This document shows, one piece after another, positions 2,975 to 19,505 of a DNA stretch of 23,813 bases. The first letter of the stretch is position 1. Every line of letters starts with the position of its first letter. The translations under genes were made by a program, and so were the position numbers. Where the stretch lies: positions 1 to 23,813 of the IMG/VR virus record IMGVR_UViG_3300038701_002211. One strand, given 5' to 3'. This DNA comes from a virus. The notes below the pieces were generated by a model. It searched no databases. It was not told the origin of the DNA and worked only from the letters and a program-made list of their open reading frames with translations.

Positions 2975-4660
2975 ATGGGATTTTTTGACCGCTTCCGCGG
3001 CACCAGAACCATAAACTCCGTGCCTCATGACCCCGGCTTCGGTGGCGTGGGGTCCATGGTCCTGAATATGTTCAGGCCCTCGCTCCGCGAGCAGCAGGAT
3101 GAGGTTTCGGACGCTTGGAATGAAACTGCTGCACGCGCTCTTCGTATGGTGGTCAACTCAGGATTTCTGACTGGAGCCGTCAATGCGGTTTCGGCTGCCG
3201 TGGTTGGTCCCGGACTGCGCCTTTCTCTTCGCCCCGACTACCAATCACTTGGTTGGGATGAAAAAGACGCTCGGGAATGGTCCTCAAAGGCTGAAAAGAT
3301 GTTCCGCGCTTGGGCGTCAACGCCGATGGAGTGCGATGCTGCGGGCGAATTGACTCTCTCTCAAATGCAGCAGGCTCAGTTCGCTGCATACCTCGCATAT
3401 GGCGAAAGTCTGGCGCTGATTCCTGTCGTCAAGCGATCAGGATCCTCGACGGCGACCAAGGTGTCTTTGGTTCCGCCTAGCCGCATCGAGGAAAAGAATG
3501 ATCCGCACAACAATCTGTATATGGGCGTGCGGACAAACAGATGGGGTATGCCCAAGGCGTACCGGATCAAAGAGTGGCGGGATGGCCAGTGGGTTGTTCG
3601 AGAACTAAAGGCCAGAGACCGGGGTGGCCTCAAAAACATCTCGCACTGCAAGGATCCTTCGATCGCCACCACACGGGGCTTCCCTATTTTGGGGCCAATA
3701 TTGAAGGCGTCCAAACAGTTCGATCAGTATGCAGACGGCAACATGCAGAAGATGATGATTCAGACCATCTTCGCTGCGGTTCTGACCTCAAAAACAGCTG
3801 GCCCAGCTGCTTTCGATGGCATCATGACGGACACGGATCGCAAGGGTCTGGAGAGTTTCGCCAAGCAAAGAAAGCAATGGTATAGTTCGGCCAAAATCGA
3901 CCTGCGAGAGCACGGCAGAATTGCTCACTTGGCGCCCGATGATGAGCTCAATTTCGTTGAAGCCAAAGGCGCAAGTGCTGATTACGACATCTTCGTTCAA
4001 TGGCTGCTCAGAGAAATCGCTGTGGGGCTGGGTGTGACATATGACACCGTGTCCGGCGATGATCGCGGCGCAACGTACTCGTCGATCCGCATGGGCAGCG
4101 CAAAGGAATGGCTCCGCGTTGAGAAGTGGCGCGAAAACATCGTCATCCCTTTCTCAAACGCAGTTCTGATCCGCTGGATGGATGAGGCAATCGCTACTGG
4201 TCGGCTGGACTTTCCGGGCGGCTATGAGGTCTGGCGTGAGAACATGTCCTACGCCGCAAGGGGAACATGGGCTGGCCCTGCGAAGCCACAAGCCGATGAT
4301 TTCAAAACTGCTCGAGCACATGAGGTGTTGAAGGACGTTGGCGCGACAACTCTGCGAAACATCTGCGAGGAATATGGCTGGGACATCGGCGATATTATGG
4401 AAGGGCAGGCCCGCGAAAACGAGCGGGCAAGAGAGCTCGGACTTCCTTTGCCATGGGCGCCGAAAGACCTTCTTGAAACCGACGAGGGGCTTGATCTGGA
4501 GTTGAATGCGCCTCCCGACGAAGGCCCCACTGACAAAAGGCGTCGAAAGAGCCCAAGCCGCAAACGAAATCGACCTGCGCCACGAAATCCGAGTGACAAA
4601 GAACCTACCGGCACAAATCTCAATGTCGATTTGGAAGAGGATATGATCAATGGCGATTGA
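2975..4660 (+). CDS. B: Phage portal protein, lambda family
   Basis: A 561-aa portal subunit. Twelve copies would form the ring at one capsid vertex through which DNA enters and leaves. The N-terminal stretch (RALRMVVNSGFLTGAVNAV, about 54-72) and the GDDRGATYSSIRMG motif near residues 360-373 are typical of lambda gpB-type portals (lambda B is 533 aa). A basic patch rich in Lys and Arg (about 521-537) lies just before an acidic C-terminus. Patches like this could touch DNA, but that is an inference. The gene starts six bases after the terminase stop, without the small gpW gene that sits between A and B in lambda. Its last 11 bases overlap the next gene. Confidence 0.93.
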   Translation: MGFFDRFRGTRTINSVPHDPGFGGVGSMVLNMFRPSLREQQDEVSDAWNETAARALRMVVNSGFLTGAVNAVSAAVVGPGLRLSLRPDYQSLGWDEKDAREWSSKAEKMFRAWASTPMECDAAGELTLSQMQQAQFAAYLAYGESLALIPVVKRSGSSTATKVSLVPPSRIEEKNDPHNNLYMGVRTNRWGMPKAYRIKEWRDGQWVVRELKARDRGGLKNISHCKDPSIATTRGFPILGPILKASKQFDQYADGNMQKMMIQTIFAAVLTSKTAGPAAFDGIMTDTDRKGLESFAKQRKQWYSSAKIDLREHGRIAHLAPDDELNFVEAKGASADYDIFVQWLLREIAVGLGVTYDTVSGDDRGATYSSIRMGSAKEWLRVEKWRENIVIPFSNAVLIRWMDEAIATGRLDFPGGYEVWRENMSYAARGTWAGPAKPQADDFKTARAHEVLKDVGATTLRNICEEYGWDIGDIMEGQARENERARELGLPLPWAPKDLLETDEGLDLELNAPPDEGPTDKRRRKSPSRKRNRPAPRNPSDKEPTGTNLNVDLEEDMINGD

Positions 4661-4919
4661 TTATGAAACGCTCTTCGGAGGGGATGACTATGATCCCTGC
4701 CTGATCGCAAGAACCCTTCGCCCAACGCTTATGCAATTGATCGTTGAAGGGCAGGTTCAGACCGTGAAGTTTCGGGATCGTGAGGTTCGCTACGGCGTAA
4801 GGGAGATCGACGAACTCAGAGGTCTTGTCGAGCAGATGGAATCTGAATGCCGGATCAAAAACGGCGACACATCGGGCATTCGAAAAGCCATTACGGCTGG
4901 CCAGGTCCACTGCGACTAG
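4650..4919 (+). CDS. W: gpW-like head-tail joining protein (probable)
   Basis: An 89-aa protein. Residues 22-67 align by eye with lambda gpW (68 aa): LRPTLMQLIVEG matches the first helix, VQTVKFRDREVRYG matches the short hairpin with its charged turn, and a closing helix follows (IDELRGLVEQME). In lambda, gpW stabilises filled heads by plugging below the portal and forms the site for FII. There are about 20 extra residues at the N-terminus and about 20 at the C-terminus. AGAGG at 4636-4640 precedes the ATG by nine bases. The gene lies after the portal instead of between terminase and portal, so the call rests on sequence pattern, not position. It could alternatively be an unrelated small head protein. 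Confidence 0.6.
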   Translation: MAIDYETLFGGDDYDPCLIARTLRPTLMQLIVEGQVQTVKFRDREVRYGVREIDELRGLVEQMESECRIKNGDTSGIRKAITAGQVHCD

Positions 4920-4929
4920 GAAATTTGCA

Positions 4930-6204
4930 ATGAACATTTTAAGCGCTGCACTCGCTCAGGAATGGGCGATGCCGGAAGATCATGTCCGCAATTTACTGGC
5001 CATCGCTGCCCGCGAGAACGAAATTTCGGATACGGCACTCGAATCCTACCGGGCTGATCGTCAGGATGAAGAGACGGGGCTCAGCATCCGAGGTGATGTT
5101 GGCGTGATCAATGTCGCGGGGCCGCTGTTCAAGTTTGCAAACCTGTTCACTGTGCTCTCAGGCGCAACATCATATCAGATGACGGCACTTGCCCTCCAAC
5201 AGGCAGCTGATGACCCCCAAATTCGGTCAATTGTTATTCAGTTTGACACTCCGGGTGGGATGGTCAGTGGGTGCGATGAGCTCGCAACTGCGATCCATTC
5301 CGCTCGGAAAACTAAGCCAGTTTACGCTTATGTCTCAGGCATGGCCGCATCGGCCGGATACTGGCTGGCATCGTCGTGTGAGAAGGTGATCATAAGCCCA
5401 GCCTCAATGGTGGGCAGCATCGGTGTTGTGCGCGCCTGGCAGGATGACACAAAGCGCAAGGCTGCAGCTGGCATCGAGACCATCGAAATTGTCTCGTCAC
5501 AGTCTCCCGACAAGCGCCCCGACCACAGCACAGATGAGGGACGTTCTGTTCATCAGAAACAGGTCGACGACTTGGCAGACGTGTTCATCAAATCCGTCGC
5601 CGAAAACCGCGGCGTTTCAGCTGATCAAGTTGCGAAAGAGTTTGGCGCCGGTGGCGTCGAGATCGGTGCAAACGCCGTGTCGAAGGGCATGGCCGATGCA
5701 ATCGGTCAATTTGAGGACCTTATCGCCGTCCTCTCAACCGAAGCCTCATCGCTTGATGGGGCCATCACAGGAGGACAGCTAGTGTCCAATAACACCAAGA
5801 ATGAGCCGGCTGCCTCTGAACCAGCAGCCCCCGACACCAAAGCAATCGCAGATCAGGCGAAAGCGCATGTGGTCGAGGTAATGAAGGCGGGTCGCGAGAA
5901 CGGGCTGAATGAAATGTCCGACGCAGTGCTCGAAGACTCGGCGTTCAACGATGTGCCAACAGCCTCGATCGTGGGCTTGATCAATACCGTTGGCGCGTCC
6001 CTCAAAGAGCGGGCTTCTTCGTCGACGCAGACCTCGCGAGGGGCAAAAGACGCTCAAGACGCCAAATCTGACTACGCAGATGAGGCTGCCGAAAACGGCG
6101 CAATCGGCGCAGGCCTTGCAGGTGATGAGCCACAAACCCCCAAAAAACCGGAAGACAAATCCGGGGAAGTTTGGGGCGCCTTCAAGAAACCCAACGCCGC
6201 GTAA
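4930..6204 (+). CDS. C: Head maturation protease, S49/GpC type, with scaffold domain
   Basis: A 424-aa capsid protease (lambda C is 439 aa) of the SppA/ClpP-like S49 family. It should cleave scaffold and other head proteins inside the procapsid. The protease domain covers about residues 50-265. It shows QFDTPGG (104-110), the nucleophile region MAASAGYWLAS with likely catalytic Ser141, and SMVGSIGVV (159-167). The general-base lysine is probably in SPDKRPD near residue 195. After about 285 the sequence becomes charged and low in complexity, as expected for a scaffold. The ATG at 4930 is chosen over an in-frame start at 4825 because it has AGGAAA just upstream and avoids a long overlap with the gpW-like gene. 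An internal start gives a separate scaffold product. Confidence 0.9.
   Translation: MNILSAALAQEWAMPEDHVRNLLAIAARENEISDTALESYRADRQDEETGLSIRGDVGVINVAGPLFKFANLFTVLSGATSYQMTALALQQAADDPQIRSIVIQFDTPGGMVSGCDELATAIHSARKTKPVYAYVSGMAASAGYWLASSCEKVIISPASMVGSIGVVRAWQDDTKRKAAAGIETIEIVSSQSPDKRPDHSTDEGRSVHQKQVDDLADVFIKSVAENRGVSADQVAKEFGAGGVEIGANAVSKGMADAIGQFEDLIAVLSTEASSLDGAITGGQLVSNNTKNEPAASEPAAPDTKAIADQAKAHVVEVMKAGRENGLNEMSDAVLEDSAFNDVPTASIVGLINTVGASLKERASSSTQTSRGAKDAQDAKSDYADEAAENGAIGAGLAGDEPQTPKKPEDKSGEVWGAFKKPNAA
5769..5774 (+). promoter_or_regulatory. Internal Shine-Dalgarno AGGAGG within the protease gene
   Basis: This full-consensus ribosome binding site lies inside coding sequence, seven bases before an in-frame GTG. 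It is stronger than the site in front of the complete protease gene, which would favour scaffold over protease in amount, as head assembly requires. Confidence 0.75.
5782..6204 (+). CDS. Nu3: Nu3-like scaffold protein from internal in-frame start
   Basis: A GTG at 5782 is in frame with the protease gene (codon 285) and is preceded by a perfect AGGAGG at 5769-5774 with a seven-base spacer. It would give a 140-aa protein equal to the C-terminal part of the protease. It is rich in Ala, Lys, Asp and Glu with predicted helix (about 20-65) and ends in a short basic/hydrophobic tail (VWGAFKKPN). In lambda, Nu3 is made the same way from inside gene C and acts as the internal scaffold for capsid assembly. 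The nested arrangement and the strength of the ribosome binding site are seen directly. The scaffold role is inferred from lambda. Confidence 0.75.
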   Translation: MSNNTKNEPAASEPAAPDTKAIADQAKAHVVEVMKAGRENGLNEMSDAVLEDSAFNDVPTASIVGLINTVGASLKERASSSTQTSRGAKDAQDAKSDYADEAAENGAIGAGLAGDEPQTPKKPEDKSGEVWGAFKKPNAA

Positions 6205-6232
6205 CGGCTGAGAAAGGTCGAAAGGAACCCCC

Positions 6233-6622
6233 ATGACCGTATTGAACGAAAACATGCGCCGGACTGCGGCATTCCTCATTTCAGAGGAAGAAGCCTACCG
6301 CTCGCGTGAGCAGGTGCAGGTTATCCCAGGTGCAAGCACCACCTTGGATGCCGGCACCATCTTGGGAAAAGTCACCGCTACAGGCAAATACGTCCAATTG
6401 GATACGAGCGAGTCTGACGGATCCCAAACAGCTGCAGGCATCCTCTATGAAAGCGCAGCCGGCGTCGGCGCTTCTGACGAAGTAAAGCGCACCATTATCG
6501 CCCGTGATGCGCAGGTCATTGAAGGCCTACTGGTGTACCCCAGCGGGCTGAACGCTTCTCAAACTGCGGCCGTGACGGCAGAACTCGTCGGCCTCGGAAT
6601 TATTGTCCGGAAGGAGGCATAA
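6233..6622 (+). CDS. D: Head decoration protein D
   Basis: A 129-aa member of the lambda gpD family (lambda D is 110 aa). Trimers bind the expanded capsid at the threefold positions and stabilise it against DNA pressure. The family pattern is visible: a disordered N-terminal arm, then PGASTTLDAGTILGKVT (32-48), a GILYESAAG strand (about 69-77) and the closing segment ELVGLGIIVRKEA. AAAGGA about seven to eight bases before the ATG fits a strong start. It sits between the protease/scaffold and the capsid gene exactly as in lambda, and its stop is three bases before the capsid ATG. High expression is expected because it is needed in about the same copy number as capsid protein. Confidence 0.93.
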   Translation: MTVLNENMRRTAAFLISEEEAYRSREQVQVIPGASTTLDAGTILGKVTATGKYVQLDTSESDGSQTAAGILYESAAGVGASDEVKRTIIARDAQVIEGLLVYPSGLNASQTAAVTAELVGLGIIVRKEA

Positions 6623-6624
6623 TC

Positions 6625-7635
6625 ATGCTGCTGGATATTTTCAAACAAAACGCTTTTGCGACCACTACGCTGACAGCGGCCATCAAGGACATGGAGTTCA
6701 AGCCGAGTTACCTGACTCAGCTTGGCATCTTTGATCCAACGCCCATTCGCGGATACACGTTCGCGGTCGAAGGCACGGCAAACAGCCTCAAGCTGATCGA
6801 GACCTCGCCACTGGGCGCTCCGCCAAAAGATCGCACGCCAGATGCGCGTAACATGCGTGACTTCCGCACGGTTCGCCTTGCTGAGCGATTTAAGCTCAAC
6901 ATGGTGGAGCTCTCCGGGATTCGTGAATTTGGCTCGGAGGAGCAGCTCAAGCAAGTCGCTCAGGAAGTGGCCATGCGCTTCACGCAGATCCGGGAAGATA
7001 TGGAACTGACACGTGAATTCCATATGCTCGGGGCAATTCAGGGCATCCTCCTTGATGCCGATGGAACAACCGCGCTTTACAACTACTGGGACGAGTTTGG
7101 CCTTTCTGCTCCCACCAACTTCTCACTGGCCCTCAACACCACCTCAACGAACGTCCGCACCAAATTGCATGAATTAACCCGCGCGCAGGCGCGGGCTTCA
7201 AAAGGTGCAATCGGCCCTGGCGTGAAGTGGCACGCACTTGCCGGTGACGAGTTTTTCGACAAGCTGGTCGATCATGAAAATGTGAGGGCGTCCTACCTGA
7301 ATTACCAAGCAGCTGCGGAGCTCCGCCAGAACAAAGCGTTTGGTAGCTTTGAGTATGGCGGCGTTATGTTCCACAACTATCGAGGAACCGATGACAACTC
7401 GACAGTTGCTGTTGATAACGACAAAGCGATCCTTTTCCCGGTGGGTGCTCGTGATGTCTTCAAAGAAGTGCTGTCGCCCGCGGAATTTGATCCTTGGGTC
7501 AACACCCTAGGCCAGCGGGAGTACGCCTTCACAATCCCTGACCTCGAGCGCGGCGCGTTTGTGCATGGCGAGTTGTATTCCTACCCGCTTTATATGTGCC
7601 AGCGCCCACAGGTACTTCGCACTCTGACTGCCTAG
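6625..7635 (+). CDS. E: Major capsid protein E
   Basis: A 336-aa capsid subunit of the lambda gpE family (lambda E is 341 aa) with the HK97-like fold expected for the family. The recognisable parts are the N-terminal PSYLTQLGIFD (about 17-27), the central REDMELTREFHMLGAIQG (about 122-139) and the C-terminal LPVGARDVFKEV-like section followed by a receptor-proximal FDPWVN motif and PLYMCQRPQVL. AAGGAGG at 6611-6617, seven bases before the ATG, is one of the best ribosome binding sites in the window, as expected for the most abundant protein. A short GC-rich hairpin (7178-7195) lies within the gene. A terminator follows immediately. Confidence 0.95.
   Translation: MLLDIFKQNAFATTTLTAAIKDMEFKPSYLTQLGIFDPTPIRGYTFAVEGTANSLKLIETSPLGAPPKDRTPDARNMRDFRTVRLAERFKLNMVELSGIREFGSEEQLKQVAQEVAMRFTQIREDMELTREFHMLGAIQGILLDADGTTALYNYWDEFGLSAPTNFSLALNTTSTNVRTKLHELTRAQARASKGAIGPGVKWHALAGDEFFDKLVDHENVRASYLNYQAAAELRQNKAFGSFEYGGVMFHNYRGTDDNSTVAVDNDKAILFPVGARDVFKEVLSPAEFDPWVNTLGQREYAFTIPDLERGAFVHGELYSYPLYMCQRPQVLRTLTA
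7178..7195 (+). other. GC-rich hairpin inside capsid gene
   Basis: CCCGCGC and GCGCGGG pair perfectly over seven bases around a GCAG loop. No T-run follows, so it is not a terminator. It may simply reflect Ala/Arg codons in the capsid protein, or it may slow translation at this point. Confidence 0.3.
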
Positions 7636-17990: not shown

Positions 17991-18006
17991 CCCCATCAGG
18001 CCAAAT

Positions 18007-18020
18007 TGAGCTTCGGCTCA
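18007..18020 (+). other. UUCG-loop hairpin upstream of sheath gene
   Basis: TGAGC pairs with GCTCA around a TTCG loop, the C(UUCG)G arrangement known for extra stability. It lies in the 66-base gap between the DUF1353 and sheath genes. No T-run follows, so it is not a classic terminator. It could be an RNA processing or stability element at the start of the tail-shaft genes. I found no convincing -35/-10 pair and no P2-type TGT-N12-ACA activator site in the gap. Confidence 0.4.
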
Positions 18021-18056
18021 TCCTCAAAATCCACCGCAATTTTTAGGAGATTGCAC

Positions 18057-19505
18057 ATGACCGAGCTACAAGCCGGCATTAAACATATCCGTGACGGTGT
18101 TGAGCCTCAGGTCATCAACACGGCGGATATGAGCGTCATCGGAATCATCGGCACAGCTCCTGCTGCGGATGACTCTATTTTCCCGCTCAATACGCCTATT
18201 CAGGTTGACGCGAGCGACAAGTTCAAACTCTTGGGCTTAGGCACGACTGGCACTCTGCCTGATGCCATCAAGGCGGGAACCCGCAATGTCGTGGTGCGCG
18301 TTGAAGACGACGCCTCTGCCGCCACCGTCATCGGGAATATGCTTGGCTCTCAGGCAGCAGGTAGCGGCGTGTGGGCATTTCTCGACGCTACGGATGACCT
18401 TGGCATCACGCCTCGGCTTCTGATCGCGCCTGGCTACACTTCACAAGCTGCTGCTGGCTTGGTCTCGATCAATGTCGCAAATGGCGGCGAAGGCTACACG
18501 AGCGCAACGATCGCCCTGAGCGGTGGGGATGGCACCGGCGCCACGGCTGAGGCCATCATCGTTGATGGTGAGATCGTGACAATCGCACTGACATCGGCCG
18601 GCACTGGCTACACATCGGCGCCCACGATCACCATCACGGGTGACGGCTCCGGCGCTGCAGCGACAGCTGTTCACTCAACAGCGGGTAATGCCGTCTGCGC
18701 GATCATGCCAACGATTTGCCGGAAGCTGAGTGCTATCTTCCTGCCCGAAGGCCCGACTGACAGCCGAGCGAATGCGCTGACATGGCTTGAAGCTCTTCCT
18801 GCGTCTGAGTTCATCGCGCACCCGCTCCGCCAGACGGTTACTGTGCAGTCGGGATCAAGCCTTGTTGAAAAACCGGCATCTCCATTTGTGGTCGCTGGTT
18901 GGGTCAATCGCGATGCTGAGACAGATGGCGTTCCAACTCGAGCCGCAGCAAATATGCCGTTGGAGGGTATTGTGGGTGTGACGCCATCAATCCCGTTCGA
19001 CATCACAGATGGCTCAAGCCTTGGTCAGCAGGATCTGGAAAAATCTTTCGGCATCATTGTTCAGGGGCAGACTGGTAGCGCGACGACGCTCACGGACAAG
19101 GGCTTTTCGTTTTGGGGAACCGACACGCTGTCGGAATCCAGCGAGTTCAAATTCGCGAACGTGCTGCGAATGCGGCTCTTCATCCACCTCACGCAGGTTC
19201 GGACGGTCCGGGTTTATCTTGGCAAATTCAACATTACGACCCAAACGGTGCAGGCGATCCTGAACACAATGAAGAGCCAGCTCTCTCAACTGAAAGCTCA
19301 GGAATACATTCTTGATTACCGTCTGAACTTCAATCCCGACCACAACCTGCCAGGCGAACTCCGCGCCGGGCAGATCGACACGATAATCAATGTCGAAGAA
19401 CCGCCCGTTCTCAAGAAAATGATCATCCGCTCGCGTCGTTATGAACAGGCTCTGACAGCACTTTCTCAGACCATCTCAACGCGCCTGCGCACGTTCGTGA
19501 ACTAA
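18057..19505 (+). CDS. FI: Tail sheath protein with inserted repeat domain
   Basis: A 482-aa contractile sheath subunit (P2 FI is 396 aa). Its rings surround the tube and shorten on injection. Typical sheath parts are the N-terminal HIRDGVEPQVI arm and SVIGIIGTAP (26-35), RLLIAPG (120-126), and the C-terminal core FANVLRMRLFIHLTQ (366-380) with DYRLNFNPDHN and GELRAGQIDTIINVEEPP. Between RLLIAPG and the helix NAVCAIMPTICRKLSAIF lies an insertion (about 137-206) of two Gly-rich repeats, GEGYTSATIALSGGDGTGATA and GTGYTSAPTITITGDGSGAAA. The ATG at 18057 has AGGAGA seven bases upstream; a TTG start at 18006 would run through the hairpin and is rejected. The tube gene follows 19 bases later. Confidence 0.93.
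   Translation: MTELQAGIKHIRDGVEPQVINTADMSVIGIIGTAPAADDSIFPLNTPIQVDASDKFKLLGLGTTGTLPDAIKAGTRNVVVRVEDDASAATVIGNMLGSQAAGSGVWAFLDATDDLGITPRLLIAPGYTSQAAAGLVSINVANGGEGYTSATIALSGGDGTGATAEAIIVDGEIVTIALTSAGTGYTSAPTITITGDGSGAAATAVHSTAGNAVCAIMPTICRKLSAIFLPEGPTDSRANALTWLEALPASEFIAHPLRQTVTVQSGSSLVEKPASPFVVAGWVNRDAETDGVPTRAAANMPLEGIVGVTPSIPFDITDGSSLGQQDLEKSFGIIVQGQTGSATTLTDKGFSFWGTDTLSESSEFKFANVLRMRLFIHLTQVRTVRVYLGKFNITTQTVQAILNTMKSQLSQLKAQEYILDYRLNFNPDHNLPGELRAGQIDTIINVEEPPVLKKMIIRSRRYEQALTALSQTISTRLRTFVN

Follow-up and report, generated by a model that had tools for sequence, protein, structure and literature searches.

A probable nested scaffold gene inside the S49 head protease gene of an IMG/VR virus, with an internal start kept among its relatives

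Does the head protease gene at 4930-6204 (+ strand) of this virus make one protein or two? The gene lies in the window, that is, the whole stretch of 23.8 kb that was analysed, an IMG/VR virus record that is perhaps a fragment since its record class is 'linear'. An earlier note had proposed that a GTG at 5782 starts a scaffold gene nested in the protease gene, after the design of lambda C/Nu3, which has reportedly been known since Shaw and Murialdo in 1980. We conclude that the locus very probably makes two proteins in that design, a protease-scaffold fusion and a nested scaffold consisting of the free tail. The precedent comes from lambda and Mu, where the shorter of the two products serves as the abundant scaffold and the longer one as the minor protease (PMC8508860, PMC4378225, PMC3224144, PMC10275583, PMC3185693, PMC10695390).

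The window carries a lambda-type head module in the order terminase, portal, 89-aa ORF, S49 protease, D, and E. The portal protein (2975-4660, + strand) matches PF05136 at 1.7e-68, the head decoration protein of gpD type (6233-6622, + strand) PF02924 at 2.2e-26, and the major capsid protein of gpE type (6625-7635, + strand), whose start is preceded by AAGGAGG, PF03864 at 1.9e-75. The order portal, protease/scaffold, D, and E that marks the lambda C/Nu3 type is thus found in the window, with the 89-aa ORF (4650-4919) between portal and protease. This ORF shows a weak match to phrog_17985, a family of unknown function, and AmM-1 has a similar-sized ORF at the same place (L020:2196-2453). The major capsid proteins nearest to that of the window (52-53% identity) belong to two phages in which a DUF2213 protein replaces the S49 protease (L014:3513-4628 and L018:2483-3607), which suggests that the capsid module and the protease module are swapped separately; in both, an inner Shine-Dalgarno (SD) start lies just past the DUF2213 domain. 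Further along the window, a tail sheath gene (18006-19505, phrog_23) makes a contractile tail probable. At about residues 150-228 the sheath has further matches to numerous families of baseplate and other virion proteins (phrog_701, phrog_708, phrog_2885, and more); this part is perhaps an inserted, widely shared domain.

The outer gene encodes 424 aa, with a protease domain followed by a C-terminal tail. The match to PF01343 (1.8e-26) ends at residue 272, and the match to the head maturation protease family phrog_53 (8.9e-77) covers residues 2-403. Pfam found PF01343 and NfeD1b_N only, and not the Mu-like_Pro domain PF10123 that is characteristic of Mu I/Z. The S49 relatives align with the window protease from residue 1. 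Among 46 sequences compared, Ser141 is invariant and Lys195 is present in at least 90%; we take these two to be the S49 catalytic residues. S49, SppA, and ClpP-type proteases were among the matches listed by Foldseek against viral models, and a search of PDB sequences returned SppA and NfeD-type proteases.

The sequence confirms that the GTG at 5782-5784 (+ strand) is codon 285 of the outer gene, in frame with the ATG at 4930, and that AGGAGG (5769-5774, + strand) stands seven bases upstream of it, across the spacer ACAGCTA. Translation from this codon would give 140 aa (5782-6204, + strand) ending at the stop of the protease gene. In the AlphaFold2 model the protease extends to about residue 277, residues 278-299 (5761-5826, + strand), which hold codon 285, form a disordered linker with pLDDT below 50, and helices follow between 303 and 364. 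Measured from the end of the Pfam match (272) or of the well-folded region in the model (about 277), the internal start comes 8-13 residues after the protease, which bears out the placement given in the earlier note. An in-frame internal SD start with a shared stop is therefore found at the boundary of protease and tail. Two other ORFs touch the site. One (5423-5782) runs forward in a different frame and ends in a TAG that shares bases with the GTG; the other (5779-6279) is antisense. Both were taken as spurious, judged by their coordinates only.

To see how far the site extends beyond the window, we collected 159 loci, 152 with and 7 without an S49 match, the former comprising 139 viral and 13 bacterial loci. 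Seven viral loci were dropped because the tail was too short or could not be mapped (among them L119, where the gene is split), and the remaining 132 genes were reduced to 69 non-redundant ones at 70% identity, the window included. By the rule applied, a start codon counted when it was in frame, fell within a zone 8-40 codons beyond residue 265, where the protease core ends, and had an SD match of 4 or more bases. Such a start was present in 66 of the 69 genes; 40 had a match of at least 5 bases and 18 one of at least 6. ATG is used at 60 of the 66 sites, GTG at 5, and TTG at 1, so the GTG of the window is a minority choice. The test of loss in close relatives, which the earlier note had named as one that could overturn its proposal, did not overturn it: leaving the window aside, 65 of the 68 non-redundant relatives keep the site, among them 9 of the 10 nearest, and the nearest of all (L108, 55% protease identity) reads AGGAGG-N7-ATG. 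It is absent from L027, L037, and L123, the protease of L037 being 47% identical to that of the window. Additional S49 phages from GenBank, outside the 69, have it in 7 of 10 fused genes and lack it in L163, L164, and L172; in L163 and L027 an AGGA stands 12 bases before an ATG, just past the spacer limit.

As a control, bacterial SppA-like genes were scanned (13 loci, mostly Rhodocyclales and few of them independent). None of the 13 had an SD of at least 5 bases in the zone. A 4-base match stood before some start in 10 of 13, mainly one shared GTG, and before ATG in 1 of 13; the 4-base threshold alone is thus permissive for genes of this sort, and more weight goes to the counts at 5 and 6 bases. 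Run on Mu as a positive control, the scan finds the Z start where it is annotated.

What the tail does is a separate matter. When 63 inner products, not counting that of the window, were combined into a profile, it matched lambda C 309-439 from its first residue (E 1e-15) and also the inner product of AmM-1 (E 3e-12), whose protease is of the ClpP family. The 140-aa tail of the window did not match this profile at E 10, and against PHROGs it gave nothing relevant, the best being a holin at E 0.36. A profile of its four nearest tails ranked it below a shuffled copy, and in the full-length profile it scored 410.1 bits versus 404.8 (sd 2.2) for shuffled tails, a weak gain of 5.3 bits reached by 16 of 1000 shuffles. 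The claim that the nested product is a scaffold therefore rests on position, nesting, conserved architecture, predicted structure, and the relatives, and not on a clear sequence match of the window tail to known scaffolds. A conserved basic C-terminus failed as a scaffold mark, since no more than 36 of 64 inner products are positive over their last 20 residues. Tryptophan makes up 12 of 1600 positions in the last 25 residues of the inner products, the window included, and 10 of 7607 before them, which is suggestive only. The tail of the window ends (about 6160-6204) with a single tryptophan in EVWGAFKKPN, a loose ending seemingly common to L108, L028, L029, and L109, and this is possibly the capsid-binding end of the scaffold.

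The tail also occurs by itself. In Sulfurimonas phage SNW-1 (L165:892-2210) and in the IMG/VR locus L119 (near 3357), the first gene ends directly behind the protease domain and is followed by a separate ORF that has an SD of its own, AAGGAG and GGAGG, respectively. Both ORFs match the 63-product profile (E 1.2e-19 and 4.5e-15), and neither was in its training set. In this S49 family the tail can thus be a protein in its own right, and, judging by their sequences, we regard the two loci as natural fissions of the nested gene. Beyond S49, an SD start soon past the protease domain was found in five of six hand-picked members of other protease families (L014, Ssp-JY39, AmM-1, PCA1, and Mu, and not in Turba).

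Could the site be an accident of the linker? AGGAGG would then be two glycine codons that happen to precede a valine codon, and only the fusion would be made. The window considered alone gives this idea some room. AGGAGG-N(4-10)-RTG occurs twice with 2.24 expected (at least two in 62 of 100 shuffles), so that, taken by itself in the window, the motif is not beyond chance. The RNA near the site shows no unusual openness (0.34 unpaired versus 0.41 along the gene), and three of the 69 genes do without the site. Against this, AGGAGG as such is depleted, with 4 copies on both strands versus 9.9 expected, and the only two copies with RTG at that distance are the one at codon 285 and the one before the major capsid gene (start at 6625). 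GGA accounts for only 4 of the 35 glycine codons of the protease gene, and 2 of those 4 form the AGGAGG. Shuffling the linker codons within each gene 300 times gave means of 15.1, 4.9, and 1.3 genes for at least 4, 5, and 6 bases and maxima of 24, 14, and 5, all below the counts observed. Equal-sized zones elsewhere in the gene, in frame and at 4 bases, gave 7-24 of 69 for any start and 1-14 for ATG, and the other two frames of the same zone 10 and 0 of 69 for any start. The zone of +8 to +40 was chosen after a first look at the data and favours the result somewhat; it hardly accounts for such a margin. Across the 66 sites the SD falls in every codon phase (29, 19, and 18), and no two of the 66 preceding hexapeptides are alike. 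We therefore reject the view that the motif persists because the linker peptide is conserved; what is kept is the signal in the RNA, and the peptide may vary. With the nearest relatives keeping the site as well, we reject a chance origin as very improbable.

Two further explanations accept the conserved site or the tail and deny that the internal start supplies the scaffold; we hold each of them to be just as unlikely. The nested product might be made and serve, for example, as an adaptor or in regulating the protease, with the scaffold coming from another gene, an idea that draws on the missing scaffold signature in the tail of the window. The gene nevertheless precedes the decoration and capsid genes just as lambda nu3 and the gpC gene of WO do, the tails of relatives match lambda 309-439, and the tail of the window is predicted to be helical with a C-terminal tryptophan like those of its near relatives. 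Alternatively, the tail might act as a scaffold only while fused, or be freed when the protease cleaves its own linker, with the internal start unused here. L037 and L123, which keep the tail without an internal SD start, would fit, but they are exceptions, and the two relatives with a separate tail gene speak for a free tail as the rule.

For the two-product reading, we infer translation, coassembly, and cleavage from lambda and Mu. Ribosomes starting at ATG 4930 would make the 424-aa S49 protease fused to the scaffold tail, and those placed by the AGGAGG at the internal GTG 5782 would make the 140-aa tail alone. By this analogy, the free tail would be the main, abundant scaffold, coassembling with the major capsid protein into the procapsid; the shared tail would carry the minor, fused protease into the shell, where it would later degrade the scaffold. 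The proposed greater strength of the inner site holds for the window, where a 6-base match faces a 4-base AGGA, as would fit an excess of scaffold. It does not hold in general, since of 65 relatives only 28 have the stronger SD inside, 19 have two equal ones, and in 18 the outer SD is the stronger.

The same scan, applied to lambda itself (L160, NC_001416 3600-7400), gave AGGAGG-N4-ATG at codon 309 of C (record position 5342, L160:1743) as the best internal site, so that the likeness to C/Nu3 holds at the level of the signal too. The RefSeq start of nu3 (5132, L160:1533) is codon 239, lies inside the protease domain, and lacks a 4-base SD match. Lambda 309-439 corresponds to positions 1-131 of the 131 of phrog_8399, 'head scaffolding protein', with both ends coinciding, while phrog_8940, 'capsid assembly protein' (201 positions), matches the longer lambda form; both nu3 starts thus seem to be present in public records. 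Purified Nu3 is about the size of the shorter form. On the sequence evidence, the RefSeq start of lambda nu3 may be wrong.

As the earlier note had expected, annotation passes over such products: among named relatives with annotation and a fused S49 gene, 14 were examined, and none lists a nested CDS. Nested scaffolds escape standard gene calling, but they can be found by the simple rule of looking for an SD and a start 8-40 codons beyond the core of the protease, giving head modules their missing scaffold gene and making the ratio of protease to scaffold and its evolution testable over many phages. No article surveying nested starts across S49 head proteases turned up in the literature searched, most subscription journals being outside its reach. 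With less confidence than for the window itself, we lean towards a wider reading, in which the nested start is a near-universal, independently maintained part of the lambda-type head module. It would stand behind unrelated proteases (S49, ClpP-type, DUF2213, and Mu type), shift freely in position and codon phase, sometimes split off, and go mostly unannotated, the RefSeq start of lambda nu3 possibly being 70 codons too early.

Compared with lambda C/nu3, the window has the same S49 protease, the same in-frame nested start with AGGAGG shortly past the core, the same shared stop, and the same order of portal, protease/scaffold, D, and E. It differs in using GTG with a 7-base spacer where lambda has ATG with a 4-base spacer, in an outer start that has only AGGA whereas that of lambda also has AGGAGG, and in a tail not recognisably related in sequence to Nu3. 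SNW-1 and L119 share with the window a protease of the same S49 family followed by a scaffold, which in them is a separate gene and not a nested one. Mu I/Z likewise has a nested in-frame scaffold with an SD, annotated as an internal start, but the I protease belongs to the Mu-like_Pro family (PF10123 match) and that of the window to S49. For gene 27 of PaMx73, a Mu-like phage of Pseudomonas aeruginosa, an internal start at Val 177 after an SD has been predicted in a protease gene (PMC4378225); there the protease is of Mu type and the start a prediction, whereas the protease of the window is S49. The window is thus very probably a further case of a design already known from lambda C/Nu3, Mu I/Z, and, as a prediction, PaMx73; its breadth, with the arrangement standing behind S49, ClpP-type, DUF2213, and Mu-type proteases, may be less familiar.
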